Shown here: in pieces, positions 1,169 to 28,051 of the stretch
How positions within the stretch are numbered: the stretch's first letter is position 1
Layout of the letters: each line of letters starts with the position of its first letter
Made by a program: the position numbers and the translations under genes
Notes under the pieces: generated by a model
What the model saw: the letters and a program-made list of their open reading frames with translations, nothing else
What the model was told of the DNA's origin: nothing
Databases searched by the model: none
NCBI GenBank assembly: GCA_002030045.1
Contig: LQBI01000024.1
Span: 266,848 to 330,847 of the forward strand
DNA from: Candidatus Aegiribacteria sp. MLS_C
GTDB lineage: Bacteria > Fermentibacterota > Fermentibacteria > Fermentibacterales > JCC-6
Direction of reading: 5' to 3'
Length of the DNA: 64,000 nucleotides

Positions 1169-1181
1169 GGGTCCACTCCGT

Positions 1182-3434: not shown

Positions 3435-3465
3435 CTTCGTCTCTCCGGAACCGGAAGTACCGTTA

Positions 3466-3493
3466 TTGACATAGTTTTCGAAGGTTATATTCT
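3466..3493 (+). promoter_or_regulatory. Predicted sigma70-type promoter for hypA-hypB
   Basis: TTGACA (3466-3471) and TATTCT (3488-3493) are separated by 16 bases in the hypF/hypA divergent region, about 57 bases upstream of the hypA GTG start. The -35 hexamer is a perfect match and the -10 matches 4 of 6. Prediction only. Confidence 0.5.
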
Positions 3494-3550
3494 ACCACTC
3501 TGAACTCCACGGGACCACATTCGTTCCCGCCGGTGAAAGGACGGCTCCCA

Positions 3551-3898
3551 GTGCACGAGATGTCGATGGCAAAGGACATGACCAGAATAATAGGCAGGAC
3601 CCTGGGCAGGAAGGTGAACCTGGAGAGGGTCAACGTAACCGTCGGACCGCTGTCCGGCATCAGCCCCGAATCTCTGCGCTTCTGCTTCACGGAGATAGCC
3701 CGCATGGAGGGGTTCGGAGAACCGGAACTGGTGATAACCACCACGGAGGCCAGAATGGTATGTCTCGAATGCGGCCACGAGTACAGCGCGTCGGACTTCT
3801 ACCAGTGCTGTCCCGTGTGCGGTTCCATCAGCAGGCGGATACTGTCGGGCAGGGAGTTAACGGTCGACAGCGTGGAGATAGAGGATTCCGCGGAATAA
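3551..3898 (+). CDS. hypA: HypA, nickel insertion protein
   Basis: HypA is the zinc-containing nickel metallochaperone that works with HypB to insert Ni into the hydrogenase large subunit. I place the start at GTG 3551, giving (M/V)HEMSMAKDM, because HypA needs His2 as a nickel ligand and an AAAGGA ribosome site lies about 9 bases upstream; the 115-residue product matches the family. A structural zinc site is visible as CLECG followed by CCPVCG. A longer reading from 3533 would bury His2 and is less likely. hypB follows 17 bases downstream on the same strand. Confidence 0.93.
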   Translation: MHEMSMAKDMTRIIGRTLGRKVNLERVNVTVGPLSGISPESLRFCFTEIARMEGFGEPELVITTTEARMVCLECGHEYSASDFYQCCPVCGSISRRILSGRELTVDSVEIEDSAE

Positions 3899-7923: not shown

Positions 7924-8469
7924 CTATTCGGAACTCTTCCCGGGCCTGGTCCTCTCCATGCGACAGAGCGAGGCGAGCCTTTCGGAAACTGTATCCAGCA
8001 GTCCCTCGAGCTTCGGTGACAGCGGCGCTCCCAGATCGAGGCAGGCGGGTTGGACGGCCAGCAGGAAGACCTCCGCTCCTGTCTCCTGTCGTATCCTGTC
8101 CATGACTAGAGCGGGTGAGAGCGTGTGCGTAGTAAAACCCGTGCTTTCCAGGAGGTCCTGCCTGCGAAGGAGTTCCAGGGTTCCGATATCCCTGTCGAGG
8201 TGCACCGCGTCGATGATGACCACCGTGTCCGGCTGCAACCTCGATACCTTTCCTATGTAGTTCTCCGGGACCGTACCGGCATCCACGGCATCAAGTCCGA
8301 AGCCCGCGAGCCTTTCCGCCAGACAGGGTCCGATACCGTCATCACCCCGGAGAACGTTGCCTACCCCCATGAAAACGATCCTGCCGCGCAGGGCATCGGT
8401 CAGCAGTTCCTCAAATTCCCCGGGGGGACCGCTTTCGGTTATCTGGTCCAATGTAACCGCTTCAGACAA
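7924..8469 (-). CDS. hycI: HycI-type hydrogenase maturation protease
   Basis: This M52-family endopeptidase removes the C-terminal tail of the hydrogenase large subunit after nickel insertion. Signatures are VGNVLRGDDGIGP near residue 36, AGTVPENYIGK, IIDAVHL and THTLSP; the order and the LLAVQP segment resemble E. coli HycI, which processes a group 4 hydrogenase. The large subunit at 14956-16140 has a 35-residue tail after its last metal-binding motif and is the obvious substrate. The 5' end is uncertain: the listed start is a TTG at 8469. The N-terminal extension before the VGN motif looks real. Confidence 0.9.
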   Translation of the reverse strand: MSEAVTLDQITESGPPGEFEELLTDALRGRIVFMGVGNVLRGDDGIGPCLAERLAGFGLDAVDAGTVPENYIGKVSRLQPDTVVIIDAVHLDRDIGTLELLRRQDLLESTGFTTHTLSPALVMDRIRQETGAEVFLLAVQPACLDLGAPLSPKLEGLLDTVSERLASLCRMERTRPGKSSE

Positions 8470-8545: not shown

Positions 8546-9160
8546 CTATTCCTCGTAGGTGGCGGTCTTGCGGCGGCATTCTGCGCAGAGGATCTTGACC
8601 CTGTCCGACCGGCCTTTGTCGGCGAGGACAGCCTGGATGTTGTCGTCCGCCAGTCCCAGTTCCCTGAGCCTGGTCAAGTAGAGCGTGGGATTCGAGAAGG
8701 AAAGCTCGCCAAGCTTCTCGGCGATCCAGATAAGATGATCCCTGGTGGCGATGACATCGCCGCATACCTCACAGAGCTGAAGCTCCTTCTCTATGGTTTC
8801 GAAGGCCTTGCTCCTGTCGAAGTAGGAGAGTTCCCACTTGTTGCCGAGGACTATGGCCTTGTCCCCCGGGTCCCTTATGCAGGAATCCTGGCAGACTCCG
8901 CAGAAAATGCAGTCGTCCGTGTAGTGGATCATGACCCTCATGGGGACATCACCATCCAGCCTGTCCTCGTGCGCGATGGCGCCAGAAGGACATGCCTCCT
9001 CGCATGCGAGACAGCCCAGGCATTTGTCCTGGTCGAACTCCGGCTGGCCCCGGAAGTTGGGGTGAGGAACGTGGGGTTCGGCGGGGAAACTAGATGTGTA
9101 CGGCCCTTTTACGAGGGCCTTTATCGCTTCTGCAAGTTCTCTTACCTTTGGATACTTCAT
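8546..9160 (-). CDS. NuoI/MbhN-like two-cluster ferredoxin subunit
   Basis: This 204-residue peripheral subunit probably carries electrons from external ferredoxin to the hydrogenase small subunit. Two [4Fe-4S] motifs are present: CLGCLACEEAC (Cys47/50/53/57) and CIFCGVCQDSC (Cys84/87/90/94). A second paired-cysteine element, C130-x2-C133 and C192-x2-C195, looks like a zinc ribbon, as in formate hydrogenlyase HycF/HyfH-type proteins. It lies after mrpG, far from the other hydrogenase subunits but in the same operon direction, 12 bases from mrpG. It is the subunit equivalent to MbhN of membrane-bound hydrogenase. Confidence 0.9.
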   Translation of the reverse strand: MKYPKVRELAEAIKALVKGPYTSSFPAEPHVPHPNFRGQPEFDQDKCLGCLACEEACPSGAIAHEDRLDGDVPMRVMIHYTDDCIFCGVCQDSCIRDPGDKAIVLGNKWELSYFDRSKAFETIEKELQLCEVCGDVIATRDHLIWIAEKLGELSFSNPTLYLTRLRELGLADDNIQAVLADKGRSDRVKILCAECRRKTATYEE

Positions 9161-9172
9161 ATTCCCATCCGC

Positions 9173-9511
9173 CTAGGCTTCGCCCTCTTTGTCCTCAGCG
9201 TAGCTGTCCACGACGCTCCTGTCCCACAGCTTTATACCCGCTCTGTGGGCTCCGCGGGAAACGGCATGGGCAGCAACCGGAGAGGCCAGGACGAGGAAAA
9301 CGATGGCTATCAGAGCCTTGAAACCCGTTTCAGTGAAACCTCCGGAAACCAGGAAGGTACCGAATAGAATACCGCAGGTACCCAGGGTAACGCATTTTGT
9401 TGCCGCCTGAAGACGGTTGTAGACATCGGGCAGCCTGACCAGTCCAAGGCAGCCGAGAACGTCGAAACCGAGCCCCAGTCCAATGAAGATCATACCTATT
9501 GTATCAATCAT
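9173..9511 (-). CDS. mrpG: Mrp antiporter subunit G (MbhC-like)
   Basis: This 112-residue membrane protein with three predicted helices is a small subunit of Mrp Na+/H+ antiporters and of Mbh-type hydrogenases. The signature GLVRLPDVYNRLQAATK is clear. The start is ATG 9511, with an AAGGAAG site eight bases upstream, inside the end of mrpF. It forms the end of the mrpA'BCDEFG series, whose gene order equals that of canonical mrp operons. Confidence 0.92.
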   Translation of the reverse strand: MIDTIGMIFIGLGLGFDVLGCLGLVRLPDVYNRLQAATKCVTLGTCGILFGTFLVSGGFTETGFKALIAIVFLVLASPVAAHAVSRGAHRAGIKLWDRSVVDSYAEDKEGEA

Positions 9512-9875
9512 CAAAGCTTCTTCCTTCCAGGTACTTGGAAAGCGCCAGCGTTCCGATGAAGCTCTGAAGTCCCCAGGCTATACCTATGTCTATATACCAG
9601 GAACGTCCGGTGGCGATGCTCAGCACCGCACACAGACCGACTATCAGTATTCCGAAGATGTCTATCGCAACTATCCTGTCCGCTGCAGTGGGGCCCCTCA
9701 GCACACGGAAGAGGACCAGGAGCGAGGAGAGTATCAGGATGTAGACGACCCTTCCCACGAATCCTATGTGCTCCGGGTTCTGCCGGAAGAAGATACTCCT
9801 GAAGGGAAGTACGATTATGAGGATTATCAGTCCCAGAAGCACCACTGCGCCGGCGATCCATCTGAGTCGTTTCAT
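9504..9875 (-). CDS. mrpF: Mrp antiporter subunit F (MbhB-like)
   Basis: This 123-residue protein has three hydrophobic helices and the MrpF motif RVLRGPTAADRIVAID. Its ATG overlaps the mrpE stop as ATGA, so translation is likely coupled. Such subunits take part in sodium or proton translocation at the junction between antiporter and hydrogenase modules. Confidence 0.92.
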   Translation of the reverse strand: MKRLRWIAGAVVLLGLIILIIVLPFRSIFFRQNPEHIGFVGRVVYILILSSLLVLFRVLRGPTAADRIVAIDIFGILIVGLCAVLSIATGRSWYIDIGIAWGLQSFIGTLALSKYLEGRSFDD

Positions 9876-10387
9876 TGTTCTACCGCGTCTTCTTCGAATA
9901 TCTTCCTGAGCATCGGTTCGAACCTGCTCCCTATCTCCCTGTAGGTGGTCTCCGGATCGGTCCCGACAACGTTGATCCAGTGGATGTAGAGAACTCCGTC
10001 GTCCCTGTTGATGTCAACGGTAAGGGTTCCAGGAGTGAGGGTTATCGAGTTGGCCAGGAAGGTCAGGCCGGTATCAGACCTGAGCCTGGTCCTGAGCCTG
10101 ACTATGCCCGGTCTGATAGGCATTTCCGGATGTATGACCCTGTAGGCAACGTCGAAGTTGGCCTTGATGAGCTCCCATGCAAAGACCGGCACGTACCAGA
10201 ACACGAAGTAGAATATCCGTATCGGATTGAAGAGCATGTGCGGCCTGGTCAGGAACATGGATCCCATCACCAGCGCCACCACCATCGACACCGCAGCTCC
10301 CGCTATGAGATGCTGTATGTCCGGTACCCATGTCAGTATGCACCAGACAACGAAGGAGAAGATGAACATCAGTCCTCTGCTCTTCAT
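9872..10387 (-). CDS. mrpE: Mrp antiporter subunit E (MbhA-like)
   Basis: MrpE-family protein of 171 residues: two N-terminal membrane helices and a cytoplasmic domain with the typical segment ANSITLTPGTLTVDI. The start at ATG 10387 was chosen because GGAGGG lies eight bases upstream; a longer reading starting in mrpD adds only a few residues. It is part of the ion-translocating module of the hydrogenase complex. Confidence 0.92.
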   Translation of the reverse strand: MKSRGLMFIFSFVVWCILTWVPDIQHLIAGAAVSMVVALVMGSMFLTRPHMLFNPIRIFYFVFWYVPVFAWELIKANFDVAYRVIHPEMPIRPGIVRLRTRLRSDTGLTFLANSITLTPGTLTVDINRDDGVLYIHWINVVGTDPETTYREIGSRFEPMLRKIFEEDAVEQ

Positions 10388-10388
10388 G

Positions 10389-11888
10389 TCACATCCCTCC
10401 ATTTTCGGCAAGCACCCTCACCGCAGGCGATAACAGCACGTCCCTGACCTGGGGTACCAGCAGCAGGCCGCCGAATATGCACATGAGGGCCAGGATTATC
10501 AGCGGTATCCGCATCAGGGCGGGCACTTCCCTGATGTCCCTGAACTTCTCCCTCAACTCCCCGAGGAACGCGAAACGGGTTACCTTCAGGACGTAGGCGA
10601 TGGTCACGATGCTCATCAGGACTGCCCATGCCGCCAGCTTCATGTGATGGGCCTGTACAGCGGCCACTATAATGACGAGCTTGCTCCAGAAACCGGCGAA
10701 GGGGGGTATTCCGGCAAGGGACATGGCCCCGGCAAGCGTGGATCCGCTGGTCACGGGCATCTTCCTGGCGAGACCGCCCATCTCCTTCATGTTCCTGGTC
10801 CCGGTGGCGTATTCGACCGCTCCCGAATCCAGGAACAGCAGCGACTTGAACATCGAATGGTTGAACAGGTGGAAAAGGGCTCCCATGATACCGAGAGGGG
10901 TCCCTATTCCGAAGCCCAGCATGATGTATCCAACCTGGCTTATGGAACTGTACGCGAGAAGACGCTTCATATCCCACTGCCGAAGGGCGACCAGCGCTCC
11001 CACTCCCATGGATATCGCCGCCAGGACCAGCAGGATGATCGAAACCTGGCGGGGAAACCCGAATACGGTGATGAAAACCCGTGCTATGGCGTAAACCCCG
11101 AGTGCCTTGATAAGGACTCCCGAGAGCATGGCGGAGATCGGTGCGGGGGCTGATGGGTGGGCATCAGGCAGCCAGGCATGGAACGGCACAATCGCCGCCT
11201 TGAGCCCGAATCCGGCCAGGAACAGACCGAAGACGAGGTATATCAGCGCCGGCTGGACGGACCATTCAGACAGGACGGTTTTCATGTCCCCCATGTTGAG
11301 CGTACCCGTGGCGCTGTAGAGGAAGATGATACCGAGGAGGATCAGCAGGGAGGCGACCCCTCCCATCACGGCGTACTTGAATGACGCCTCCAGCTCCCTC
11401 TTGCCCGTACCGAAGCCTACCAGGGCATAGCTAGCTATGGAGGCGACCTCCACGAAGACGAAGAGGTTGAACATGTCTCCCGTCACCAGTACGCCGTTCA
11501 TTCCGGCCAGCATAAGCAGGAACAGGGTGTGGAACTGCCACTTGTCCGTGTAGCGGGTCATGTAACTTACGGAGTAGACCGCCACCAGGAAGGCTACGAA
11601 GTTGACTATGAGCAGCATGAAGATGGTGAAACCGTCCACCACCATCTGTATGCCGACGATCCTTCCCATCACCTCCTGGAATCCGCCCCAGTTGCCCACG
11701 TTGAGCACCAGCACGGTCCTTTCCGCCTGCATCCTTACGAGAAAGAAGACGGAGAGGACGAAACCGGAAAAGGATGACATCACTCCAAGGATGTCGGGAA
11801 TACCCCTGACCCTCTTCAGAAGGGCGGTAAGGAATGCGCCGGCCAGTGGGACGGCAACAAAGAGAGGTACTATGCTTTCACTGATCAT
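10389..11888 (-). CDS. mrpD: Mrp antiporter subunit D (MbhH-like)
   Basis: This 499-residue polytopic protein belongs to the NuoL/M/N-MrpD antiporter family, with about 14 membrane helices. GDMFNLFVFVE in an early helix carries the conserved glutamate, and KAAIVPFHAWLPDAHPSAP the conserved lysine region of the proton or sodium channel. It is the main translocating subunit. The stop lies one base before the mrpE start codon region. A second antiporter-like subunit is encoded at 13268-14959, giving two half-channels of this type. Confidence 0.93.
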   Translation of the reverse strand: MISESIVPLFVAVPLAGAFLTALLKRVRGIPDILGVMSSFSGFVLSVFFLVRMQAERTVLVLNVGNWGGFQEVMGRIVGIQMVVDGFTIFMLLIVNFVAFLVAVYSVSYMTRYTDKWQFHTLFLLMLAGMNGVLVTGDMFNLFVFVEVASIASYALVGFGTGKRELEASFKYAVMGGVASLLILLGIIFLYSATGTLNMGDMKTVLSEWSVQPALIYLVFGLFLAGFGLKAAIVPFHAWLPDAHPSAPAPISAMLSGVLIKALGVYAIARVFITVFGFPRQVSIILLVLAAISMGVGALVALRQWDMKRLLAYSSISQVGYIMLGFGIGTPLGIMGALFHLFNHSMFKSLLFLDSGAVEYATGTRNMKEMGGLARKMPVTSGSTLAGAMSLAGIPPFAGFWSKLVIIVAAVQAHHMKLAAWAVLMSIVTIAYVLKVTRFAFLGELREKFRDIREVPALMRIPLIILALMCIFGGLLLVPQVRDVLLSPAVRVLAENGGM

Positions 11889-11904: not shown

Positions 11905-12258
11905 TCATCCTCTTAATTCCCGCATCCTGGTTATGTCGAAGGTCCCGTACTTCCCGTAGAGCCTGATGGCCAGAGCTATCATGAATGCGGTGGTTGCCAG
12001 TCCGATGACTATCGACGTCAGCACCAGGGCATGGGGGAGCGGGTCCACCATGGACTGGGGAGCTATATGCTCGGTGGTCGAGAAGATGGCCGCCCTCCCT
12101 CCGGCCTTGTAGGCCACCAGGATGAGGAACAGGTTGACCGCGTACTCGGCTATCACGACACCCAGTATTATCTTGATGATGTTCCTCTTGGAGAGGACCG
12201 CATAGATACCGATGCAGAACAGTATCAGGCAGAGTATGTACGGCATGTGCGCGTTCAT
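11905..12258 (-). CDS. mrpC: Mrp antiporter subunit C (NuoK/MbhG-like)
   Basis: This 117-residue protein with three helices is the NuoK homologue of the Mrp module. The typical PHALVLTSIVIGLATTA segment is present near residues 75-91. Its ATG overlaps the mrpB stop (ATGA). It should contribute the central channel glutamate of the NuoK-like half. Confidence 0.92.
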   Translation of the reverse strand: MNAHMPYILCLILFCIGIYAVLSKRNIIKIILGVVIAEYAVNLFLILVAYKAGGRAAIFSTTEHIAPQSMVDPLPHALVLTSIVIGLATTAFMIALAIRLYGKYGTFDITRMRELRG

Positions 12259-12713
12259 TGCTTACTCTCCGATTCGAACTTCTGCAGCACTATGAGAGTG
12301 AGGAAGATACCGAAGAGGCCGGCGCCCACCTTCAGGCTGATGGCGATGTTCTCCAGCGGGATGATGCCAGCACTGACCAGCCCACCGGGCTCACCGTCGG
12401 GATGAAGGAAGTTGTCGAAGAACCCTCCGTACTGCAGACCGATAAGGGCGAGGGCCAGGAACATCAAGGCGCCCAGCGCTTCCACTACCCCTGTGCTCTC
12501 CTTCGAGAATATCCCTGCGGAAACCTTTCCGCCGAATGCAAGGTCAAGGTTGATGAACGAAAGGGCGATTATGACCCCTCCGGCGAACCCTCCGCCGGGA
12601 GTGAGGTGTCCATGCAGTATGATGTATATTCCGTATAGGAATATCAGGCCGACGGTCAGTCTGGTGACCGTCTTGACGATCAGGGACATTCCGTGCTCGT
12701 GTTCTTTACTCAT
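12255..12713 (-). CDS. mrpB: Mrp antiporter subunit B (MbhF-like)
   Basis: MrpB-family membrane protein of 152 residues with the hallmark HGHLTPGGGFAGGV. Four hydrophobic helices are apparent. The start overlaps the end of the preceding gene by eight bases and has an AGGAG site within it. It belongs to the ion-pumping module. Confidence 0.93.
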   Translation of the reverse strand: MSKEHEHGMSLIVKTVTRLTVGLIFLYGIYIILHGHLTPGGGFAGGVIIALSFINLDLAFGGKVSAGIFSKESTGVVEALGALMFLALALIGLQYGGFFDNFLHPDGEPGGLVSAGIIPLENIAISLKVGAGLFGIFLTLIVLQKFESESKQ

Positions 12714-13267: not shown

Positions 13268-14959
13268 TCAGATCAGAACGATGCACAGCACCGCCAGGCC
13301 TATCACGAACCAAAGGAGGTACCTGGACAGTATACCGTTGTGCATGAAGGAGAAAACGATCCCGAAACCGGCCGCTATCTTCTGCAGGACCTCGTAGAGG
13401 TCGAACAGCTTCTTCTCCGCCAGCCGGTATATGACCTTCAGGATGCCGATTTCCCTTATCGTCCTGTAGAAGTCCACTCCCGAGACCCTCATGTCCGGGT
13501 TCTTCTCCAGGGTTTCCCCTCCGATGAAAGGTGCCACGATCCTGGCTTTTCTGATGGAGCCCGAGAGGTATATGAGGTATCCTATCACCAGACCTGCCAG
13601 CAGCACCAGTGTCGCCGGTCCCGACTGCCATATGCCCGGCATGTGGAGCTCTCCTCCGACGCCGGGTCTGAAGTAATCGGCGAAGGGGATCTTCCATGCG
13701 ATCACGCCGAGGCCGATGCAGAGAAGTGAAAGGACGGCCAGTGGAAGGATCGTGAAGAAGCCGGTCTTCTCCCTGCTTTCGATCACCTCCCTTGATATCT
13801 GCGAGGGCTGCCCGAGGAAGACGCTGTGCACGAGTTTCATGAAACTCGCCAGTGTGAGGGCGCTACCCAGCATGGCGGCTACCAGCCACACCACCCACAG
13901 AGTACCTCCTCCGGATATCACTCCCTGGTACAGCATCCATTTTGATGCGAAACCGTTGAAGGGCGGTACTCCGGATATGGAGAGCGAGGCTATCAGGAAC
14001 GCGGCGAACACCATGGGCATGGCCTTCACGAGACCGCCAAGCCTGGCAAGGTCGGAGGTACCCGTCCTTCTCTCAACCTCCCCGCCGGCCAGGAACAGGC
14101 TGGACTTGTATATGGTGTTGTTGAACATGTGGAACAGCGCACCCGCGATGCCCACCGGGTTCCCGGTCCCGATGCCCAGTACCATGTAACCGACCTGGCT
14201 CACGGCGTGGTAACCGAGGAGGCGCTTGAGATCGTGCTGGACCAGCGCCATCATCACCGCCGCCATGATCGTTACGCTTCCCAGCGCCATGAGTACGGTG
14301 TTCATGGCAGGCGTCATCACGAAAACCTCGAGGGTCACCCTGGCCAGGAAGTAGATCCCCAGCAGCTTGTCGAGGGATGCCGGAAGGAATGCGGTTACCG
14401 GAACAGGTGCATCCCTTGCGGTATCCGGAAGCCATGTATGGAACGGCATCGCCCCTGCCTTCGCGAAGGCCGCGGACGCCAGGCACAGATAGGCTATTAC
14501 CGAACCGGTGGTGTCGAGCTGGATGCCCATTCCGGCGAAGGGAAGCCTGAGGAAGCCGGGCAGTCCGGTGGAACCGTACCTGATGCTCCAGATAAGTACT
14601 ATCCCCAGAAGCAGAAGCACGTCTGTTCCACCTATGATGGCAAGCGACTTCCTGGCTGACTCGGGAGTGCCCTCCTCCCTGCCGAATCCGATGAGGAGAT
14701 AGAGCATGAGACCCAGGAATCCCCACAGTACAAGGAGCAGAAGGAAGTTGGCCGAGAACAGGATCCCGAGGGTGGCCAGGAAGGTGGCCAGGATGTAGAT
14801 GTAATACCTCCAGAGACCCTTCCTCCCGCTCATGTGCCTGAAGGAGTACACAACCGTGAATACGAAGAACATTGCGGCGAAAACGGCGCAGACAACTGAC
14901 AGAGGGGTGCTTGCGAAGTAGCCGCCGGGGTTCTTCAGAGCATCGATCAGGTACTTCAT
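13268..14959 (-). CDS. NuoL-like ion-pumping subunit with C-terminal lateral helix
   Basis: This 563-residue polytopic protein belongs to the NuoL/HyfB/MbxH'-type family. GAMPFHTWLPDTARDAP carries the conserved charged channel region, and VQHDLKRLLGYHAVSQVGY is the second lysine helix. The last about 60 residues hold a long amphipathic stretch (FDLYEVLQKIAAGFG) and a final membrane helix, like the lateral helix of NuoL or the separate MbhI protein. Its ATG overlaps the stop of the large subunit gene. With mrpD it gives two antiporter-type channels, as in Mbx, although the catalytic subunit is of hydrogenase type. Confidence 0.9.
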   Translation of the reverse strand: MKYLIDALKNPGGYFASTPLSVVCAVFAAMFFVFTVVYSFRHMSGRKGLWRYYIYILATFLATLGILFSANFLLLLVLWGFLGLMLYLLIGFGREEGTPESARKSLAIIGGTDVLLLLGIVLIWSIRYGSTGLPGFLRLPFAGMGIQLDTTGSVIAYLCLASAAFAKAGAMPFHTWLPDTARDAPVPVTAFLPASLDKLLGIYFLARVTLEVFVMTPAMNTVLMALGSVTIMAAVMMALVQHDLKRLLGYHAVSQVGYMVLGIGTGNPVGIAGALFHMFNNTIYKSSLFLAGGEVERRTGTSDLARLGGLVKAMPMVFAAFLIASLSISGVPPFNGFASKWMLYQGVISGGGTLWVVWLVAAMLGSALTLASFMKLVHSVFLGQPSQISREVIESREKTGFFTILPLAVLSLLCIGLGVIAWKIPFADYFRPGVGGELHMPGIWQSGPATLVLLAGLVIGYLIYLSGSIRKARIVAPFIGGETLEKNPDMRVSGVDFYRTIREIGILKVIYRLAEKKLFDLYEVLQKIAAGFGIVFSFMHNGILSRYLLWFVIGLAVLCIVLI

Positions 14960-16140
14960 CTGACCCCCATCCTCCGTTTTATCCTATCGGTCTTCTCCCT
15001 GCTGAGCTGGATGAGGTCCTTGCCGCCGTAGAGAATCCTGCCCCCCGTGTCCTTGACCGCTATCCTCTCGGTGCAGCAGTAGCATGGATCAATGGCGGCC
15101 AGGATTATCGTGGCATCGGATATGGTCTCACCCTGTACCGTAGCCTTGTAAGTGGGGAGGTTCATGAAGGTCGGAGCCCTCACCTTGTGCCTGACCGGCC
15201 TGTTGGTCCCGTCGCTCTTGACGTAGTGGAAGGTCTCGCCCCTGGGGGCCTCTATATGGCCTATGCCTTCGCCCGGAGGGACGTCCTTGATGTTGGCGTC
15301 TATCTCTCCTCCGGGAAGATGCTCGAGGCAGAACCTCATGATCTTCGCGGACTCGAACATCTCCAGGATCCTCACCACTGCCTTGTCGAAAACGTCACCG
15401 TTGCTGGTGACGATCATGTCCCACTCCATCTCCTGGTAGGCACCGTAGGGCGAATCCTTCCTCACGTCACGGGCGACACCGGAAGCCCGGGAGGTGGGAC
15501 CAAGGGCGCTGAAATCTATGGCTTCCTGGTAGGTCATCACGCCCACCCCCTTGAGCCTGGCGTGCAGCACCGGATCGTCAAGGACAGCTTTCTTCAGCAT
15601 GTCCAGCGTGGGCAGGATGGATTCGATCTTCCTGATACATATGGGGATGTCCTCCGGCTTGATATCCCTTCTGACCCCCCCGGGCTTGAACATGGCGTAG
15701 TTGTTCCTGTTGCCGGACAGGATCTCCATCACGTCGAGGATCTCCTCCCTCAGCTTCCAGGCCCACATGTAAACCGTGTTGTAGCCCAGGAAATGCCCGG
15801 CCAGACCCAGCCAGAGCAGATGGGAATGGATCCGCTCGCCCTCGGCGATGATGGTTCTGATGTACTTGGCGCGAATGGGCACTTCCATGGGGAAGACGTC
15901 CTCGACCGCCCTGGTATACGCGAAGGGATGGCTTGTGGAACAGATGCCGCATATCCTCTCGACGACGAACGTGCTGTTCTCGAATGTCTTCATCTCGGAG
16001 AGCTTCTCGATGCCCCTGTGGTTGTATCCTATTCGGACGTCTATGTCGACGACGGTCTCACCCTCGACCGTCAGGGTGAAGAGCTCGGGTTCCTCCTGAA
16101 GAGGATGGTACGGGCCGATGGGAATTATCGTCCTGCCCAT
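14956..16140 (-). CDS. [NiFe] hydrogenase large (catalytic) subunit, group 4
   Basis: The 394-residue NuoD/EchE/MbhL-type subunit keeps both nickel-binding cysteine pairs: RICGICS (Cys64, Cys67) and DPCYCCTER (Cys353, Cys356; an extra Cys355 lies between). This shows a true hydrogenase rather than a Mbx/complex I-type subunit, which lack them. A 35-residue tail follows Arg359 and would be cut off by the HycI-like protease at 7924-8469. The start at ATG 16140 has a GGGGAG site six bases upstream. It is predicted to reduce protons or oxidise H2 on the cytoplasmic side of the membrane arm. Confidence 0.96.
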   Translation of the reverse strand: MGRTIIPIGPYHPLQEEPELFTLTVEGETVVDIDVRIGYNHRGIEKLSEMKTFENSTFVVERICGICSTSHPFAYTRAVEDVFPMEVPIRAKYIRTIIAEGERIHSHLLWLGLAGHFLGYNTVYMWAWKLREEILDVMEILSGNRNNYAMFKPGGVRRDIKPEDIPICIRKIESILPTLDMLKKAVLDDPVLHARLKGVGVMTYQEAIDFSALGPTSRASGVARDVRKDSPYGAYQEMEWDMIVTSNGDVFDKAVVRILEMFESAKIMRFCLEHLPGGEIDANIKDVPPGEGIGHIEAPRGETFHYVKSDGTNRPVRHKVRAPTFMNLPTYKATVQGETISDATIILAAIDPCYCCTERIAVKDTGGRILYGGKDLIQLSREKTDRIKRRMGVR

Positions 16141-16141
16141 G

Positions 16142-16615
16142 TCAGACTCCCCTTGTCCTGTCGGCCTTCTCGTCCCACTCCTCATAGTCCTGACGGAGCG
16201 GATAGACACCTTCCGGCCAGTTGTCCGCCAGGAGCAGTCTCCTGGGGTCGGGATGACCGGTGAAGGTGATCCCGAGAAGTTCGCTCATCTCCCTCTCGAT
16301 CCAGTTGAGGGCCTCGATGTCCTTTCCCAGCGAATCCATTACCGGATGCTCCCTGTCGATCAGCACCCTCAGAGAGATGAGGAGGTTTATGTCCTCGACG
16401 ATGAAATGGTAGAGGATCTCGATGTTGGGCGGCATGTCGGTCCCGGACGCTATGTTGAACCTTGCGCCCAGGTTCCTGAACAGGTACGTTCCGATCCTTA
16501 CCATCGATTCCGGCCTTACGGTGATGTAGACCCTGGAATGCGACTTGTCGTAGAGGTCCAGTATATCCTCGTGGAAACGGCTTGTGAAATCCAGAAGTAC
16601 TTCTTCTCTTGTCAT
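16142..16615 (-). CDS. NuoC/MbhK-like hydrogenase subunit
   Basis: This 157-residue protein matches the 30-kDa subunit (NuoC) family: WIEREMSELLGITFTGHPD followed by LLLADNWPEGVYPLRQDY. It is a structural subunit next to the large subunit in group 4 hydrogenases. Its ATG overlaps the stop of the small subunit gene (ATGA), and its stop lies one base from the large subunit start. Confidence 0.93.
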   Translation of the reverse strand: MTREEVLLDFTSRFHEDILDLYDKSHSRVYITVRPESMVRIGTYLFRNLGARFNIASGTDMPPNIEILYHFIVEDINLLISLRVLIDREHPVMDSLGKDIEALNWIEREMSELLGITFTGHPDPRRLLLADNWPEGVYPLRQDYEEWDEKADRTRGV

Positions 16616-17037
16616 TGGGAGCCGCCCACCCTTTCGATAAGTTTCACGACGCCGGCAATTATCGCTTCGGGCTTTGGAGGACAGCCGGGAATGTAGACAT
16701 CCACCGGAATTATCTGGTCAAGGGGCTGCGGGCAATTGTAACTGTCCTTGAAGATCCCCCTGGACGCCGCGCAGGTGCCTATGGCGACCACGAGACAGGG
16801 TTTTGGAACCTGTTCCCACAGGGCCTTCAATCTCTCCACCGACATCCTGTTGCCGGAACCGGTTACCAGCAGTACGTCCGCATGCTTGATGCTCCCCGCA
16901 AGCAGCATGCCGAACCTTTCTATGTCGAACCTGGGGGTAAGACAGTCCAGCGTCTCGATATCGCAGTTGTTGCAGCTTCCCGTCGAGAGGTGGAAGACCC
17001 AGGGGGATTTCAGGAGCGCTTTAAGCTTCAGGCTCAT
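16612..17037 (-). CDS. [NiFe] hydrogenase small subunit (NuoB/EchC/MbhJ-like)
   Basis: This 141-residue subunit carries the proximal [4Fe-4S] cluster that feeds electrons to the NiFe site. Motifs are STGSCNNCDIE (Cys22, Cys25), VAIGTCAASRG and VYIPGCPPKPEAI, all typical of the NuoB-like small subunits. It lies between the NuoH-like and NuoC-like genes, the usual group 4 order. Length is normal for the soluble, non-exported form without a signal peptide. Confidence 0.95.
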   Translation of the reverse strand: MSLKLKALLKSPWVFHLSTGSCNNCDIETLDCLTPRFDIERFGMLLAGSIKHADVLLVTGSGNRMSVERLKALWEQVPKPCLVVAIGTCAASRGIFKDSYNCPQPLDQIIPVDVYIPGCPPKPEAIIAGVVKLIERVGGSQ

Positions 17038-17057: not shown

Positions 17058-17969
17058 CTATATGCCATTCAACGCCAGCACGACGGCGGCTGTTGCCAGG
17101 ACCGTCATCGGTCCCCAGAAGAACCTGACGGCCTGGTCGATACGGACCCTGGGATTCGTGTTGCGTATAACCGTTATCAGGGCTACGATCCCGACGTATT
17201 CCAATAAGGTCCAGAGGATGTTGATCCCGTTCAGACGCATTCCACCGAAGAACAGGATGATCAGGAAGAAAGGAAGCGTGAACAGGAGCATGTTCTTCAT
17301 CAGCCTGAAGACTGCCAGGCCCGGTCCGGAGTATTCCACCAGCGGCCCTTCCACTATCTCGGTCTCGGCCTCCGGTATGTCGAAGGGGACCAGGGCCAGT
17401 TTGGCCTGGACGCACAGCAGCGCGACTATCAGTGCGATTATACCTGACAGGTGGCCGGCAGTTATGCCGTCTGACTGATTCTCTATTATTCCACTGATGC
17501 TCAGGTCTCCCGCCCATATCACAGGTACCAGAGTAGCAAGGATGAACGGAAGCTCGTAGGCCATCACCAGCTTCATCTCCCTGGAGGCGCCCAGGCTCGC
17601 CAGCGGGTTCCTCGAGGCGAAGCCCCCCAGTATGATGCTCAGGGAAGGTACAGTGAGCAGGTAGATGGCAACGATCCAGTCACCCATGAAGCCGCCTTCG
17701 AAGAACTGGTTGACCCAGAAAAGAGTTGCCGCCGCCACGACTCCGGCGAGACCTATGACCGGTGCCATCAGGAAGGTCCCCCTGGATGCCCCCGCGGGGA
17801 TTACCGTCTCCTTTCCAAGCAGCTTGACGATATCAATGAAGGGCTGAAGGAACGGGGGGCCGACCCTGTACTGCACTCTGGCGGTAACCTTCCTGTCGAT
17901 CCAGCTGGTGACCAGGCCCAGGGCCGCGGTGGCTGCGAAACCGAACACGATGAGGTATACGAAAGTCAT
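17058..17969 (-). CDS. NuoH/MbhM-like membrane subunit
   Basis: The 303-residue polytopic protein anchors the hydrogenase module to the membrane and forms the NuoH-like quinone-cavity homologue. Family signatures are RKVTARVQYRVGPP near residue 25, LGASREMKLVMAYELP and VPFDIPEAETEIVEGP. Start ATG 17969 has AGGAG six bases upstream and overlaps the preceding ferredoxin gene stop as ATGA. Longer in-frame readings upstream cover the ferredoxin gene in another frame and are not real. Confidence 0.94.
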   Translation of the reverse strand: MTFVYLIVFGFAATAALGLVTSWIDRKVTARVQYRVGPPFLQPFIDIVKLLGKETVIPAGASRGTFLMAPVIGLAGVVAAATLFWVNQFFEGGFMGDWIVAIYLLTVPSLSIILGGFASRNPLASLGASREMKLVMAYELPFILATLVPVIWAGDLSISGIIENQSDGITAGHLSGIIALIVALLCVQAKLALVPFDIPEAETEIVEGPLVEYSGPGLAVFRLMKNMLLFTLPFFLIILFFGGMRLNGINILWTLLEYVGIVALITVIRNTNPRVRIDQAVRFFWGPMTVLATAAVVLALNGI

Positions 17970-18508
17970 GCCCTGCTCCTGTCCCAGTGGGTCGAGTGGA
18001 CCACGAGCCGGTTGCCCAGATGGAAGATGTTCTCTCCCTCCATGTCCTCGTCGGCGAGCGCCAGGGCTCCGTAGGGACAGGTGGGGATGCAGGTGTAGTC
18101 TCCGCGGTCCTGGCAGTAGTCGCATATGTTGGACATCCTGGGAAGTATCTCGGGGTATATCGTACCGTAGGGGCAGGCGTGGGAACAGGACCTGCACGCC
18201 ACGCATCTGACCGTGTGCCTCACCAGGGTTCCGTCCTCCTTCTTCTCCAGGGCATCCTTCGGACAGGCGTTGACGCAATGAGGTTCCTCGCACTGTCTGC
18301 ATACGAGGGCGTAGGTGGCCAGCTCGATGAGAGAGATGACCCCGTTGTTCCAGGGATGGTAGAAGTAGCTGCACTTGATAACGCATTCCTCGCACACCTC
18401 TGAACTGCATATGTCCAGATCAATGAACAGCTTCTTTCCGCTCTCCTTCTTCCCCACTGCGTCGATGTCGCCGTGAAGCTGGTCGATGGTGGTCCTGTTC
18501 ATTTCCAT
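17966..18508 (-). CDS. HycB/CooF-like polyferredoxin
   Basis: This 180-residue soluble protein has cysteine motifs for about four [4Fe-4S] clusters: CSSEVCEECVIKC, CRQCEEPHCVNACP, CVACRSCSHACPYG and CDYCQ with CIPTCPYG. It resembles the electron-transfer subunits of formate hydrogenlyase and CO-induced hydrogenase. It is a third iron-sulfur entry protein in this operon, placed between the flavoprotein and the membrane subunit genes, and could wire the flavin module to the hydrogenase. Which donor it meets is inference. Confidence 0.9.
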   Translation of the reverse strand: MEMNRTTIDQLHGDIDAVGKKESGKKLFIDLDICSSEVCEECVIKCSYFYHPWNNGVISLIELATYALVCRQCEEPHCVNACPKDALEKKEDGTLVRHTVRCVACRSCSHACPYGTIYPEILPRMSNICDYCQDRGDYTCIPTCPYGALALADEDMEGENIFHLGNRLVVHSTHWDRSRA

Positions 18509-18515: not shown

Positions 18516-19331
18516 CTATTCCCAGATGCCGGGATAATCCCGGATCATGTCGTACGTGAAGACCGGTCCGTCCTTGCAGCAGTAGTAGGGGCCAATCCTG
18601 CAGTGTCCGCACTTGCCGAAACCGCAGGACATGTTCTTCTCCATCGAGAGATAAATGTTCCTGTCCTTGATCCCGAGTTCCTGAAGCTTGAAAGTGGCGA
18701 ACTTCATCATTATGGGTGGGCCGCAGACGATAGCCCTGGCTCTCGAGAAATCCACGTCGATGTCGTTCATTATGGTCGTCACGACTCCCACCGGGCCGTT
18801 CCAGGTATCGTCGCACTGGTCGACGGTGAGTTTCATGTCGAGGTCCTTACGGTCCATCCAGCTCTCCAGTTCCTTTCTGTAGAGCATCTCTTCGGGATTC
18901 CTGCAGCCTCCCCTGTAGACCAGCTTCGATATCTGGTCCCTCATATTGAAAAGACCGTACATGAGCGTTCTTATCGGCGCCAGGCCGACGCCTCCGCCTA
19001 CGACCACGATATCCTGACCGATGAACTTCGTAAGAGGGTAGCCCTTGCCGAGGGGACCCCTGAGACCCACTGTGTCACCGGGTTCCAGTTCGTGTATCGC
19101 ATCGGTCACTCTGCCCACCCTGACTATGGTTATCTCCATGGTCTCGGTGTTCTGTGAATCCGAAGAGGGAGTGAACGGGGCCTCACCTACTCCCGGGACC
19201 GAGAACTCCATGAACTGTCCGGGTTTGAATGCTATCTTTTCTTTGGGCTTGAGAAGGAAAGTTTTGATGGTGGGCGTCTCTGTGGTAACTTTAAGGACCT
19301 CGGTTTCGATGGAACTGTACGGATTCTTCAT
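18516..19331 (-). CDS. HydG/AsrB-like FAD/NAD(P)-binding subunit
   Basis: This 271-residue ferredoxin reductase-like flavoprotein is of the kind found as the gamma subunit of archaeal sulfhydrogenase or subunit B of anaerobic sulfite reductase. The flavin region contains GVGEAPFTPSS, the pyridine-nucleotide region VVVGGGVGLAPIRT, and a C-terminal [2Fe-2S] site is formed by MSCGFGKCGHC plus a later CC pair. It should exchange hydride with NAD(P)H. Its start codon directly follows the stop of the HydB-like gene, and both lie ahead of the hydrogenase genes in one operon. Confidence 0.9.
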   Translation of the reverse strand: MKNPYSSIETEVLKVTTETPTIKTFLLKPKEKIAFKPGQFMEFSVPGVGEAPFTPSSDSQNTETMEITIVRVGRVTDAIHELEPGDTVGLRGPLGKGYPLTKFIGQDIVVVGGGVGLAPIRTLMYGLFNMRDQISKLVYRGGCRNPEEMLYRKELESWMDRKDLDMKLTVDQCDDTWNGPVGVVTTIMNDIDVDFSRARAIVCGPPIMMKFATFKLQELGIKDRNIYLSMEKNMSCGFGKCGHCRIGPYYCCKDGPVFTYDMIRDYPGIWE

Positions 19332-20354
19332 CTATACTTCCAGTCTTGCCAGGACTTCCCTGATGTCGATCTTCCCGGGACAGGCGGCAATGCATCTCCC
19401 GCAACCGGTGCAGGCTATCTCGCTGGCCACTTCAGGGAAGTAGTTGAACTTCTTGTCGAACCTGTTTCGCAGCCTCATCCAAAGCCTGTCCCTGGGATTC
19501 TCGCCGCCCGCAACCCTGGCGAAGTCATTTATCATGCATGAATCCCATACCCTGTACCGAGCAAGCCTTCCGTCAGCCTTCTGATCGTAGAGCAGGAAGC
19601 AGTGGCAGGTGGGACATATGGTATTGCATGCGCCACACTCGACGCAGTCCCTGGAAGAATCCTTCCAGAGATCGGCCTCCTCGTAATTCTTCTGCATCAC
19701 TCTCTTGAGCCTGTCGACCGAGGGTATCTGCTTCTCCTTGGCGTTCTTCGCTACCCGCTTCCTTATATCGTTCCTGTTCTTCTTCGCTGAATCGGCCAGT
19801 GCCTTGTCCTCTGTCTCACCGAACATGTCCGAATGGCTCTCGACCAGTTTCCTCCCCTTCTCGCTTCCAACGGCCACGATGAAGCCGCCTTCCACGGGGG
19901 AAAGGTTGAGGTCAAACTCGGCCTCGGGCCACGGGTTCAGGTCAAGCGCGGTACAGAAACAGGTATCGCCGACTCCTGTGCAGTCGGCGGATATGATGAG
20001 CCCTTCTTTCCTGTGCCTCATGTAGGTGGGGTCTCCGTACTCCTCGTCCATGAAGACGAAATCCAGGATCCTGAAACCCTTAAGGTCGCAGGCTTTCGCC
20101 CCGACTATGCAGGGCGGCTTGTCCTCATGCGGTACACGGGGGCTGAAACCCTCGGCCACCTTCTCCCTCCCCAGGAAGAAGAACGACTTCAGAGGATCGA
20201 AGGACCTTATCTCACCGATGACGTAATCGGTATCGCCCTCCCGGAGCAGGGAATACCCCGTTCCCTTCCCCATGACCCTGGGAACGTATACGCGATAATC
20301 CGCCCTGAGGGATTCCAGAAGACGATCGAGATCGATTCGTTTTAGAAAAATCAT
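19332..20354 (-). CDS. HydB/AsrA-like iron-sulfur subunit
   Basis: This 340-residue protein matches the beta subunit of sulfhydrogenase or subunit A of anaerobic sulfite reductase: a long N-terminal domain (IVGAKACDLKG, TCFCTALDLNP) and two C-terminal [4Fe-4S] motifs, CVECGACNTICPTCHC and CTGCGRCIAACPGK (starting at about Cys315). It would pass electrons between the flavoprotein and other Fe-S proteins. I use the ATG at 20354; longer readings run through sequence without family similarity and across the predicted promoter. No good Shine-Dalgarno is visible, which fits a leaderless or nearly leaderless message. Confidence 0.9.
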   Translation of the reverse strand: MIFLKRIDLDRLLESLRADYRVYVPRVMGKGTGYSLLREGDTDYVIGEIRSFDPLKSFFFLGREKVAEGFSPRVPHEDKPPCIVGAKACDLKGFRILDFVFMDEEYGDPTYMRHRKEGLIISADCTGVGDTCFCTALDLNPWPEAEFDLNLSPVEGGFIVAVGSEKGRKLVESHSDMFGETEDKALADSAKKNRNDIRKRVAKNAKEKQIPSVDRLKRVMQKNYEEADLWKDSSRDCVECGACNTICPTCHCFLLYDQKADGRLARYRVWDSCMINDFARVAGGENPRDRLWMRLRNRFDKKFNYFPEVASEIACTGCGRCIAACPGKIDIREVLARLEV

Positions 20355-20360
20355 GGCAAT

Positions 20361-20389
20361 GAAATAGACCGCGTGAAGACCTTTGTCAA
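20361..20389 (-). promoter_or_regulatory. Predicted promoter of the hydrogenase operon
   Basis: On the minus strand TTGACA (20389-20384) and TATTTC (20366-20361) are 17 bases apart. The -35 is perfect; the -10 keeps TAT. The downstream edge lies only six bases before the ATG at 20354, so the transcript would start at or next to the start codon. Confidence 0.5.
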
Positions 20390-20569
20390 GGGGCCTTCCA
20401 GACGTCATTTGATGGGTATTCACGTCGTTTTTCATGACCCTGGGAGCCAACCTGATAACATGTTCCGGAATGTCGCGTCCGGCCCCTTCAGTATTATTTC
20501 CAGGCGTTTCGGGAAAAATCCGGGCTTGCTGCACTGGAATGGTGCCGTCTGTCAAATTCGAGATGACCT

Positions 20570-20622
20570 GGTCCCGGTCTTTTTTAGTGAATCCCGAGGC
20601 CGCACGTATTCGGACCGGGACC
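20570..20622. repeat. 10-bp perfect inverted repeat
   Basis: GGTCCCGGTC at 20570-20579 pairs with GACCGGGACC at 20613-20622 across a 33-base spacer that begins with a T run. Role unknown; it could be an operator or part of a transcript structure upstream of the hydrogenase operon. Confidence 0.6.
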
Positions 20623-20910
20623 GGTAACGAGCTTAATGGAACAGAAGGTATTCACTCATGAGAGACATGGTTTGCTGAGCCGATCTGTCATTCATCCCTG
20701 CCATTCTCATGACAGTGACCGTCATGGGGAACTGATACGGGGAGTATCCTCCCAGGATAGCGTGGTCCCCGGTGGAGCAGGTCCTGCCGGTCTCCCTGGA
20801 AGACAGCCTTGTTTTGTGGCGTGAGCACGGGGGGCAGCATCAACCTGGCCAGGGGGAAGACCTCCTCTCCCGCCTTCTATCCGGATGGAAGTCATGCCGT
20901 GTCCCATCCT

Positions 20911-20985
20911 GGTGCCGGGCCTGGAAAAAGGGACATTCCCGGATTGAGATTCCTTGATGATGTCTCATTTTCCAGGCCCGGCACC
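20911..20985. repeat. 18-bp perfect inverted repeat spanning the slt stop codon
   Basis: The arms at 20911-20928 and 20968-20985 are exact reverse complements, with a 39-base spacer. The right arm codes the last residues of the Slt-type protein, and its stop codon lies at the arm edge. Within the spacer a small GGGA-CAT-TCCC hairpin, followed on the minus strand by five T, may act as a terminator. Confidence 0.7.
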
Positions 20986-23166
20986 ATAAAGAGACATGTA
21001 GATAACGTACGCGTGGTTGACGTTCTGGGTGTAGGCCCTTGTTTCATTGAAGGTTATCAGTGAGAAGAACTCTTCGGTCCCCATGTCCCCGGCGCCCCAG
21101 TGCAGAGCGTTGTGAGGTCCTCCGTTGTAAGCTGCGGCGGTGAACACAGGATCGCCTCCGAAACCCCTGCTTATGCCGGATATGTAGGTTATTCCGTAAT
21201 GTATGGACATCTCGGGATCGTACAGCCTGTCCGGTGAGTAGTCGTCCCATCCGTTCTCTAGCGCCACATACTCCGAGGTGCTGGGGATCATCTGAATAAG
21301 ACCCCTTGCACCAGCCACCGAGTAGGTCCACGGCTGGAACATGCTCTCGTTCCTTATGACCGCCCATGCGAAAAGAGGGTCCAGACCGCAGGTCTCGCCA
21401 GCCGGAACAACGAACTCCGGCCATGCCATCTGGTATCGCAGCATCCAGAGCTCCCTGGGCCTGTCGTTCTCGTCATCCGAGAGGTCCCACATGTTGTAGC
21501 CCGAGATAGGTCTCCGTTCCCAGACGCTGTTGTCAAGGTAGAAGGGAGCAAGGTACTGCGGTCCTCCCACCTTTTCCTCACCGGCCCTGAACTCAGCGTC
21601 GGCATAGCTCCTCAGACCTGCCTCCTGCAGGAATAGACCCCTCAGGGTCTCTTCCGGAGGTTCCACGGGAGAAAGACCGTGTCTCATCATCCAGTCCTCG
21701 AGAGGTTCCTCGGTAAAAACAGGTTCCCATGGGGGAATCCCAAGGAACTCCCTTGCGAAACGGGCGGGAAGACTGAAGGGAGCTGACACCGTGAGATCCT
21801 CGAGAATCCTTCTGCCATCCGGGTTGCCCTCAGAGTAGAGAAGCCTTCCCATCCAGTACCTTGCGGAGGAAAGGTAGACGCTTGCGGTCCATCTTGAGAT
21901 GAAAGCCTCGAGTTCGGAGACCGCCGCGGAGATGTCACCCGATTTCATGAGCGAGAAACAGAGGTAGAAATGGGAATCGTCGGCGGTGACGTTCCCCGGA
22001 TACTTCTCCAGGGTCATCCTGAACCATGGGACAGCCCTTTCCCATAGCCTGTTCTCGGCCAGCATGTTTCCTATGTACCAGGGTAGATTACCGATCCGTG
22101 CATGTTCCGGGAACCGCTCCCCGTACTCGAGCAGAGTCCCCAGTCCCTCCTCCGGTCTTCCGATGCGCCCCAGGTTCCTGCCGAGATTTATCAGTGCATC
22201 CGGGCAGTCCTCGCCCTCCGGCCACCTCGCGAGATACTCTCTCAGCATGTCAACCGCCGTATCATAGAAACCGAGCCTGTCCCTGGTCCTGGCGGCAAGA
22301 TACCACAGATGCGGGTCGGGGTTCTCGGAATTGACAGCGACATCGTAAAGCTCGTTCCAGAGACCTCCGGAATAGAAGTCGTCGGCGAGGGAAGCTCCCA
22401 GCCATGCGGTCTCGAGTATCTCTTCCCTCAGAATGTCGTAGGCTGCGGCATGGACCGGGGCTGCAGGCCACAGGCCGAATGACCTGAGGAACTGGTCTCT
22501 GTATCCGGCGAGGCCATGCTGCATCATCCATGATGCACGGTAATGGCAGAGGAGCGACAACATTTCGTCGTTCCCGGATCCCTCCGCATTCCTGAACACC
22601 GAATCGGCGGCGTCAGCCATGCCCTCACCCAGAAGTGACCTGTACAGGAGGATCGTTCTTCTGTCGGCCGCTTTGCCGGATAGAACGGAAGGCACCGGTT
22701 CCAGGGCCTCAAGCGCTCCCCGTGTATCGCCGGCGGCAAGCAGGGTGTCAGCCAGGACCAGATGGAGGTATTCCGGCAGAACGCAACCGTTCCTGGACAG
22801 GTACGACCTGAGAGCAGGTACGATCCGATATCCTCCGATCTCCAGGGCCCTGTACGGAGCCAGTGAGTCGGGGGTCTCGAGCAGGAGCTGGGCTGTGACA
22901 AGGTTCATCTCTCGGGAAGCGTCAGCGGCTTTTCGGGCCAGCTCGCATCTGATACCGTCCTGCAGGGGTCTGAGGAGAGCGGCTCTGACGTATTCTTCCC
23001 GGGCTTCATTCCCTAGACCGCAGGCCAGGAGAGAATCGCCCCTGGCCTCCGCCAGAAGGCTCCTCTCGGTGGAGGAAAGCGTTTCGTCGGGCTGCACCGT
23101 CCTGCAGCCCGCAAGGGCCAGCAGAAGGAAAAGGGGCTTGAGCAGCCTACTTCCTGTACTTGGCAA
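20965..23166 (-). CDS. Slt-type lytic transglycosylase, lipoprotein
   Basis: This periplasmic murein-cleaving enzyme has a lipoprotein signal (basic residues, LFLLLALAG, Cys21), a long helical superhelix of TPR-like repeats (about 40-500) as in Slt70, and a C-terminal SLT domain with the catalytic glutamate in IRNESMF (Glu607), AGARGLIQMIPSTS and AAAYNGGP. The start is inferred: TTG 23166 gives a good signal peptide and has GGAA seven bases upstream; no ATG is suitable. It overlaps the preceding TPR gene by 20 bases. Product length about 733 residues, slightly longer than E. coli Slt70. Confidence 0.88.
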   Translation of the reverse strand: MPSTGSRLLKPLFLLLALAGCRTVQPDETLSSTERSLLAEARGDSLLACGLGNEAREEYVRAALLRPLQDGIRCELARKAADASREMNLVTAQLLLETPDSLAPYRALEIGGYRIVPALRSYLSRNGCVLPEYLHLVLADTLLAAGDTRGALEALEPVPSVLSGKAADRRTILLYRSLLGEGMADAADSVFRNAEGSGNDEMLSLLCHYRASWMMQHGLAGYRDQFLRSFGLWPAAPVHAAAYDILREEILETAWLGASLADDFYSGGLWNELYDVAVNSENPDPHLWYLAARTRDRLGFYDTAVDMLREYLARWPEGEDCPDALINLGRNLGRIGRPEEGLGTLLEYGERFPEHARIGNLPWYIGNMLAENRLWERAVPWFRMTLEKYPGNVTADDSHFYLCFSLMKSGDISAAVSELEAFISRWTASVYLSSARYWMGRLLYSEGNPDGRRILEDLTVSAPFSLPARFAREFLGIPPWEPVFTEEPLEDWMMRHGLSPVEPPEETLRGLFLQEAGLRSYADAEFRAGEEKVGGPQYLAPFYLDNSVWERRPISGYNMWDLSDDENDRPRELWMLRYQMAWPEFVVPAGETCGLDPLFAWAVIRNESMFQPWTYSVAGARGLIQMIPSTSEYVALENGWDDYSPDRLYDPEMSIHYGITYISGISRGFGGDPVFTAAAYNGGPHNALHWGAGDMGTEEFFSLITFNETRAYTQNVNHAYVIYMSLYGAGPGK

Positions 23167-28038: not shown

Positions 28039-28051
28039 TGTGGTCACTCAC

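Follow-up and report, generated by a model that had tools for sequence, protein, structure and literature searches.

Group 4 [NiFe] hydrogenases whose genes lie next to genes for Mrp antiporter-like subunits have been described in several bacterial lineages. In Saganbacteria RX5A, asrA, asrB, cooF, the hydrogenase genes and such antiporter genes occupy one region; relatives of this cluster were reported from Omnitrophica and Zixibacteria, and an Mbh-like function was proposed (Matheus Carnevali 2019, PMC6349859). A 'group 4g, Mrp-linked' [NiFe] hydrogenase, for which the authors infer ferredoxin as donor, was described in Omnitrophota and Cloacimonadota (PMC8542988). Here, we analyzed an operon on the minus strand (20354 to 7924) of a 64,000-nucleotide stretch of the Candidatus Aegiribacteria sp. 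MLS_C genome (Fermentibacterota; 2.98 Mb; contig LQBI01000024.1, positions 266,848 to 330,847), hereafter the window. It resembles the RX5A region in the genes listed above and, by phyla and description, the group 4g enzyme, since the same phyla are found among its closest relatives. In contrast to the RX5A region, which holds a molybdopterin oxidoreductase, the window operon is without one, and nothing was found in the excerpts of PMC6349859 on the glutamate of transmembrane helix 5 (TMH5), on loss of TMH1-2 or on a split mrpA order.

The genes run in the order asrA-like, asrB-like, cooF-like, nuoH, nuoB, nuoC, nuoD, NuoL-like, MbhD+MbhE, mnhB, mnhC, mnhD, mnhE, mnhF, mnhG, nuoI and hycI (Table 1), so that the NuoB, C, D, H, I core and the Mrp genes share one operon. 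The gaps from asrB to nuoI measure -23 to +20 bases, 76 bases lie ahead of hycI, and the nuoD-type and NuoL-like genes share 4 bases with both frames open. The genes of Pyrococcus furiosus membrane-bound hydrogenase (MBH) follow a different order. For comparison, we used the best 80 loci of a single contig search with the L1 motif pattern, none of them archaeal by record title; individual loci carry L numbers. Because the large subunit matches MbhL (E=4.9e-89) and other phyla show the same arrangement of genes, the operon is not a chance assembly. The layout is that of a broad bacterial family spread over many phyla and already described in part. We therefore regard the gene cluster as known in kind, and the novelty as the loss of the TMH5 residue in one pump subunit. 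The operon probably encodes an Mrp-linked group 4 [NiFe] hydrogenase with a predicted NAD(P)H diaphorase module and a complete Mrp arm with split mrpA, and not, as a preliminary description of the locus had proposed, a step between Mbh and Mbx.

As that description had pointed out, the large subunit keeps the motifs RICGICS and DPCYCCTER. Its Cys64, Cys67, Cys353 and Cys356 align to the MbhL Ni ligands Cys68/71/374/377 and its Glu17 to MbhL Glu21; complex I, in contrast, has no Ni. Both Ni motifs were found in 78 of the 80 family ORFs (open reading frames), L2 being missing in two, and the conservation of L1 is partly by construction because L1 was in the search pattern. The best PDB chains were MbhL (302 bits), HycE of formate hydrogenlyase (FHL; 274) and, next, complex I; MbsL scored much less (170). 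P. furiosus MBH (6cfw) is similar also in its Mrp-type small subunits; unlike the window, it has one antiporter subunit, a separate MbhI and no diaphorase. In a tree of 60 of the 95 gathered large-subunit rows, the window family (44 rows) formed one clade (100/98) nested within the Ni-binding hydrogenases (52 rows, 100/99) and apart from Hyc/Hyf. Branching among the Ni-hydrogenases is poorly supported (MbhL 87/70), as several end branches are long and the references in the tree are few. Formate hydrogenlyase (4a, Hyc/Hyf) also differs in its fused NuoC-NuoD, nuoC and nuoD being separate in the window. Genes for HypD, HypF and a HypA-like protein lie at window 3-3898, so that the NiFe site can be built. 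Thirty-five residues follow DPCYCCTER, whereas the 6cfw_L chain of MBH stops at that Arg, which fits a C-terminal extension that HycI would remove, judged by the MBH chain end.

Two further Fermentibacterota loci (L125, L126) encode strongly diverged NuoD-like proteins in which all four Ni cysteines are missing, beside NuoB and two antiporter-like genes; in the tree, these proteins form a long branch adjoining Hyc/Hyf.

The membrane arm has two antiporter-like subunits, NuoL-like and MnhD-type, in agreement with the preliminary description. If the NuoL-like protein corresponds to MrpA-N and the MbhD+MbhE (D+E) protein to MrpA-C, equivalences stated in PMC7419157, the run NuoL-like, D+E, B, C, D, E, F, G matches a stand-alone Mrp operon in order. 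Judged from the genes, the predicted arm is an entire Mrp antiporter: all its genes are there in canonical order, with two genes in place of mrpA. Mrp antiporters (6z16, 7qru; L129) share the order A-B-C-D-E-F-G and the subunit set, and they gave the top Foldseek matches, with MrpA 6z16_A first for the predicted NuoL-like model; unlike the window, they have MrpA as one gene, keep the TMH5 Glu and lack a redox module. In the stand-alone Mrp operon of a Sphingomonas plasmid (L129), the order is A(B)-C-D-E-F-G, with A and B joined. The full run nuoL-DE-B-C-D-E-F-G was present, across many bacterial phyla, in 40 of the 46 eligible loci, i.e. those in which 9 kb or more of sequence follows nuoD. 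In 59 loci, a single ORF of at least 150 residues encodes D+E; in L062 it is split, and in L087 the contig ends within it. D+E is also found as a gene of its own in the Mrp operon of a haloarchaeon (DUF4040 by annotation, 182 residues). In antiporter trees, the window MnhD groups with MrpD/MbhH/MbsH/NuoN and the NuoL-like protein with MrpA/NuoL/HyfD/HycC-type subunits (98-99% splits), with poor support inside the latter half. L133_742, L131_456 and L131_403 were left out as spurious frames, and the Paenibacillus complex I rows (618, 539, 536), absent from one antiporter tree, are included in a later one.

The antiporter genes vary among the relatives. A third antiporter-like subunit (410-467 residues) is encoded between nuoD and nuoL in L070, L084, L087, L088, L093 and L105, and also in L077 and L081; it sits beside HyfD in the trees and gives three pump subunits together with a Ni site, as in complex I. 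Where adjacent Mrp genes are lacking, only the NuoL-like gene is retained (L086, L111) or there is no antiporter gene nearby (L082, L046). Omnitrophota-type loci encode a PhoU-domain protein between nuoD and nuoL (L038:11176-11799 and L061:9166-9783, the two that were tested), and ORFs of similar size occupy this position in L055, L076, L079, L080, L081, L083, L086 and L111.

We next turn to the NuoL-like subunit, in which Gly80 (codon GGA) occupies the place where antiporter-like subunits carry the TMH5 glutamate. HMMER alignments to MbhH, NdhF and MrpA and two MAFFT alignments concur on this column, which is anchored by the preceding Trp79. Over 64 family rows (the window plus all loci of the 80 whose NuoL-like ORF exceeds 520 residues, L086 and L111 included), position 80 is G in 57, E in five, D in one and I in one, and it is Gly in 18 of 18 Fermentibacterota loci (the window and some genomes of the 64 among them). 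By contrast, Glu is present at TMH5 in 35/35 rows of other antiporter-like subunits, among them the MnhD of the window itself, and in 51/51 MnhD proteins of the window family. The TMH5 comparison alignment comprised 61 loci with long NuoL-like ORFs, the divergent L084 and L106 being left out, and the folding alignment 53 of those 61 and the window. The rows with an acid at the TMH5 position (L070, L078, L084, L088, L096, L100) mostly branch off close to the base of the NuoL-like tree, at weakly supported nodes, and loss of the Glu requires about four changes on that tree; the L084 protein may have been replaced, given its strong divergence. Moreover, about 50 N-terminal residues, and hence TMH1-2, are missing in 29 of the 64 rows, the window included (two changes on the tree). 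In E. coli HycC (7z0s), the Glu/Lys pair is likewise broken in the single antiporter subunit, albeit in reverse: HycC has lost Lys(TMH7) (Leu208) and kept Glu135, and the TMH5 Glu is called strictly conserved (PMC9474812). No description of a TMH5 Glu loss was found in searches of the open-access literature or in the available excerpts of PMC9474812, PMC7419157, PMC7684303 and PMC11228991.

The lateral-helix tail that the preliminary description had assigned to this protein is also predicted here. In the model (mean pLDDT, a per-residue confidence score, 87, but 60-87 over the tail), a helix at 446-471 is followed by a loop, helices at 505-515 and 521-537 and a helix at 544-562, resembling MbsH' and the TMH15-HL-TMH16 tail of HycC (HL, lateral helix; PMC9474812), and phmmer aligned residues 10-558 to 59-613 of MbsH' (6u8y_X). 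No MbhI gene was found between asrB and nuoI, where only the short gaps given above remain.

As for electron input, the AsrA/AsrB-like genes suggest, from what is inferred for the HydB/HydG and AsrB families, NAD(P)H as electron partner. Electrons would pass in either direction between NAD(P)H, FAD and 2Fe-2S of the AsrB-like subunit, the AsrA-like, CooF-like, NuoI and NuoB subunits and the NiFe site, a path drawn from anatomy, and the NiFe site would form or split H2. The input module is swappable, because AsrA/AsrB-like genes are lacking, or molybdopterin proteins inserted, in some loci: in L096, a weak molybdopterin-oxidoreductase match (22.1 bits, cut-off 24) stands in their place, and in L105 and L078, molybdopterin proteins lie between asrB and cooF. 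The complex is widespread in uncultured anaerobes, and if it is NAD(P)H-linked, metabolic models that assume a ferredoxin donor would change.

Coupling, modelled on the MBS, MBH and Mrp structures, would run from the NuoH charge channel and a NuoL-like loop to the NuoL-like subunit, the MrpD-like subunit and a cation path in MrpA-C/BCEFG. For Mrp, it was proposed that the charge of MrpD Lys(TMH12) acts on MrpA Glu(TMH5), whose proton goes to Lys(TMH7) (PMC7419157); in MBH, MBS and FHL, the redox module lies at the opposite end, and the HycC pair at the end distal to it (PMC9474812, PMC7419157). If the window complex is arranged as in MBH/MBS/FHL, Gly80 would lie at the NuoL/MnhD junction and the hand-over there could not use a Glu. 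Since the TMH5 Glu is lost, the usual Glu(TMH5)/Lys(TMH7) switch at the outer end of the NuoL-like subunit, which meets MrpD Lys(TMH12) in Mrp, cannot work normally, and we expect this subunit to convey strain or protons in another way, or to be a weaker pump.

That the operon is a true evolutionary intermediate between Mbh and Mbx appears very improbable on the mainly bacterial sampling used. MBS/MBX (6u8y) has two antiporter subunits with a lateral helix on the proximal one, as is predicted for the window, and kinship of the NuoL-like subunit with MbsH' is neither shown nor rejected (p=0.196). The large subunit, however, lies outside the MbsL clade: forcing its family and MBS/Mbx into one clade was rejected (approximately unbiased test, p=1.5e-5, log-likelihood 60 lower). 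The gene order is Mrp-like, not Mbx-like, and the same genome has a separate Mbx/MBS-type operon (contig C7, about 18561-29253; L121:2561-13253). This operon encodes mnhE, F, G, MbhD, an MbhE+MnhB fusion, mnhC, two antiporter subunits, nuoH, nuoB, NuoD and a NuoI fused to a GltD-like NAD(P)-binding flavoprotein (619 residues). Its NuoD lacks Ni ligands, best matches MbsL and groups with it and four other Fermentibacterota proteins in a separate clade (100/99, 60-row tree), and its second antiporter subunit best matches MbsH'; as in MBS, the proximal pump has a lateral helix. Both C7 and MBS/MBX differ from the window in a large subunit without Ni ligands, in MbhE joined to MnhB and in TMH5 Glu in both pumps. 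Pfam confirms MbhD and MbhE in one window gene, with MnhB apart, but not as the Mbx-like trait that had been claimed, since Mbx fuses E to MnhB: in C7, no MbhE is attached to MbhD, and MBS has a separate MbsD and an MbsE that covers two modules with six TMH (PMC7684303). A ferredoxin-coupled Mbh, with AsrA/AsrB serving another enzyme, would agree with the description of relatives as Mbh-like and ferredoxin-dependent (PMC8542988), but is rather unlikely, as the AsrA/AsrB-like genes lie directly upstream of cooF, in the order asrA-asrB-cooF-nuoH, in 51 of the 53 loci with at least 2.5 kb upstream of cooF (missing in L095 and L096), and asrB adjoins cooF in 62/62. Several observations weigh against an Mrp-linked, NAD(P)H-coupled hydrogenase with split mrpA. 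The family matches on which NAD(P)H as donor is based score below curated cut-offs, and the test of kinship with MbsH' gave no rejection, as mentioned. Grouping the NuoL-like family with only the two MrpA rows was rejected (p=0.0055), which removes MrpA as its nearest sister, so that 'split MrpA' describes layout and homology and not recent descent from MrpA. Finally, three of the 46 eligible loci (L082, L086, L111) have no Mrp genes beside the hydrogenase, L054 ends after nuoL, an odd fused frame occurs in L050 and mnhD is absent from L106; with these six deviating, the Mrp module can come and go.

For the altered NuoL-like subunit itself, one possibility, which we hold only tentatively, is that this family has re-wired its redox-proximal pump: the TMH5 Glu is gone, the Lys/His axis is kept, and an Mrp/MBS-style charge hand-over would be absent. 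Counting FHL, the Glu/Lys switch would then have been disabled twice, independently, beside a [NiFe] site, in this family perhaps as a lower gear for electrons at the NAD(P)H level. NAD(P)H has a potential of about -320 mV and H2 of -414 mV at standard conditions; NAD(P)H thus yields little or no energy for H2 formation, and a weaker coupling would fit, although this is speculation. If true, a lower gear would allow NAD(P)H electrons, low in energy relative to H2, to remain coupled to an ion gradient, in either direction. It is similarly conceivable, if doubtful, that the complex is an ordinary, fully active two-pump Mrp-hydrogenase of unchanged mechanism in which the TMH6 acid Asp113 replaces the TMH5 Glu. 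Asp or Glu is found at 113 in 61 of the 64 rows, and L070, L078, L088, L096 and L100 have acids at both positions, as this explanation predicts. The TMH6 acid is no wholly new feature, being present in the complex I-type NuoL of Paenibacillus (L133) and in NdhF (6hum_F alignment); in NuoL-type subunits it co-occurs with the TMH5 Glu, however, and is thus not by itself a substitute. An inert spacer that braces the complex by its lateral helix, leaving all pumping to the MrpD-like subunit as in MBH, would account for the losses of both the TMH5 Glu and TMH1-2, but we consider it unlikely, as Lys167, Lys198, His277 and Lys340 are identical in 64/64 rows and would be needless in a dead channel. 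The family offers a natural experiment on how charge passes between the pump subunits of complex I relatives: the same hydrogenase with and without the Glu/Lys switch, which the sister lineages L078, L088, L096 and L100 retain.

The features of the operon are collected in Table 1. Here, CooF-like is a putative name that follows position, and MnhB/MbhF-like a putative name that follows the Mrp families.

Table 1. Predicted products of the operon, with window coordinates, strand and the evidence for each assignment.
Product	Coordinates	Strand	Evidence
AsrA/HydB/ShyB-like subunit, 340 residues, two [4Fe-4S] motifs, start by homologue length	19332..20354	-	NF040829 153 bits, NF040833 142, TIGR02910 126, all below curated cut-offs
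AsrB/HydG-like FAD/NAD(P)-binding iron-sulphur subunit	18516..19331	-	TIGR02911 223 bits, below cut-off 288.6; Pfam NAD_binding_1, FAD_binding_6, DHODB_Fe-S_bind
CooF/HycB-like polyferredoxin subunit	17966..18508	-	Pfam Fer4_11
NuoH/MbhM-like membrane anchor	17058..17969	-	Pfam NADHdh 1.1e-68; best PDB chain MbhM 6cfw_M
NuoB/MbhJ-like small subunit	16612..17037	-	NF005012 130.7 bits, above cut-off 116
NuoC/MbhK-like subunit	16142..16615	-	Pfam Complex1_30kDa
[NiFe] large subunit (NuoD/MbhL-like), 394 residues, four Ni-binding Cys, C-terminal extension	14956..16140	-	motifs, alignment, tree
NuoL/MrpA-N-like antiporter subunit, 563 residues, lateral-helix tail, without TMH1-2, TMH5 Glu to Gly80	13268..14959	-	alignments, predicted structure
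MbhD+MbhE fusion, 182 residues	12706..13254	-	Pfam MbhD (residues 10-68), MbhE (116-175); equivalence to MrpA-C from PMC7419157
MnhB/MbhF-like	12255..12713	-	orthologue and position in loci
MnhC/MbhG-like	11905..12258	-	position, orthologues
MnhD/MbhH-like second antiporter subunit, TMH5 Glu147 kept	10389..11888	-	alignment, trees
MnhE/MbhA-like	9872..10411	-	position, orthologues
MnhF/MbhB-like	9504..9875	-	position, orthologues
MnhG/MbhC-like	9173..9514	-	position, orthologues
NuoI/HycF-like 2x[4Fe-4S] subunit	8546..9160	-	NF009053 91 bits, below cut-off; motifs
HycI-type maturation protease	7924..8469	-	TIGR00072 above cut-off; Pfam HycI

Profile and Pfam scans of the operon proteins revealed no gene for a formate dehydrogenase, the partner enzyme in formate hydrogenlyase. 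Just downstream of hycI, window 4618-7890 encodes a trans-4-hydroxy-L-proline dehydratase-like glycyl radical enzyme and its activase, an arrangement found among the relatives in L035 only. A pyruvate formate-lyase was ruled out at this position, as the enzyme best fits trans-4-hydroxy-L-proline dehydratase (1078 bits, cut-off 1100), and no formate link therefore arises from it.

No Mbh was found in the plasmid records searched. Near-identical operons, with 74-84% large-subunit identity, occur in Omnitrophota, Hydrogenedentota, Nitrospirota and Nitrospinota (the L039-L054 region of the tree) and also in Fermentibacterota, a degree of sequence similarity which suggests recent transfer between phyla.

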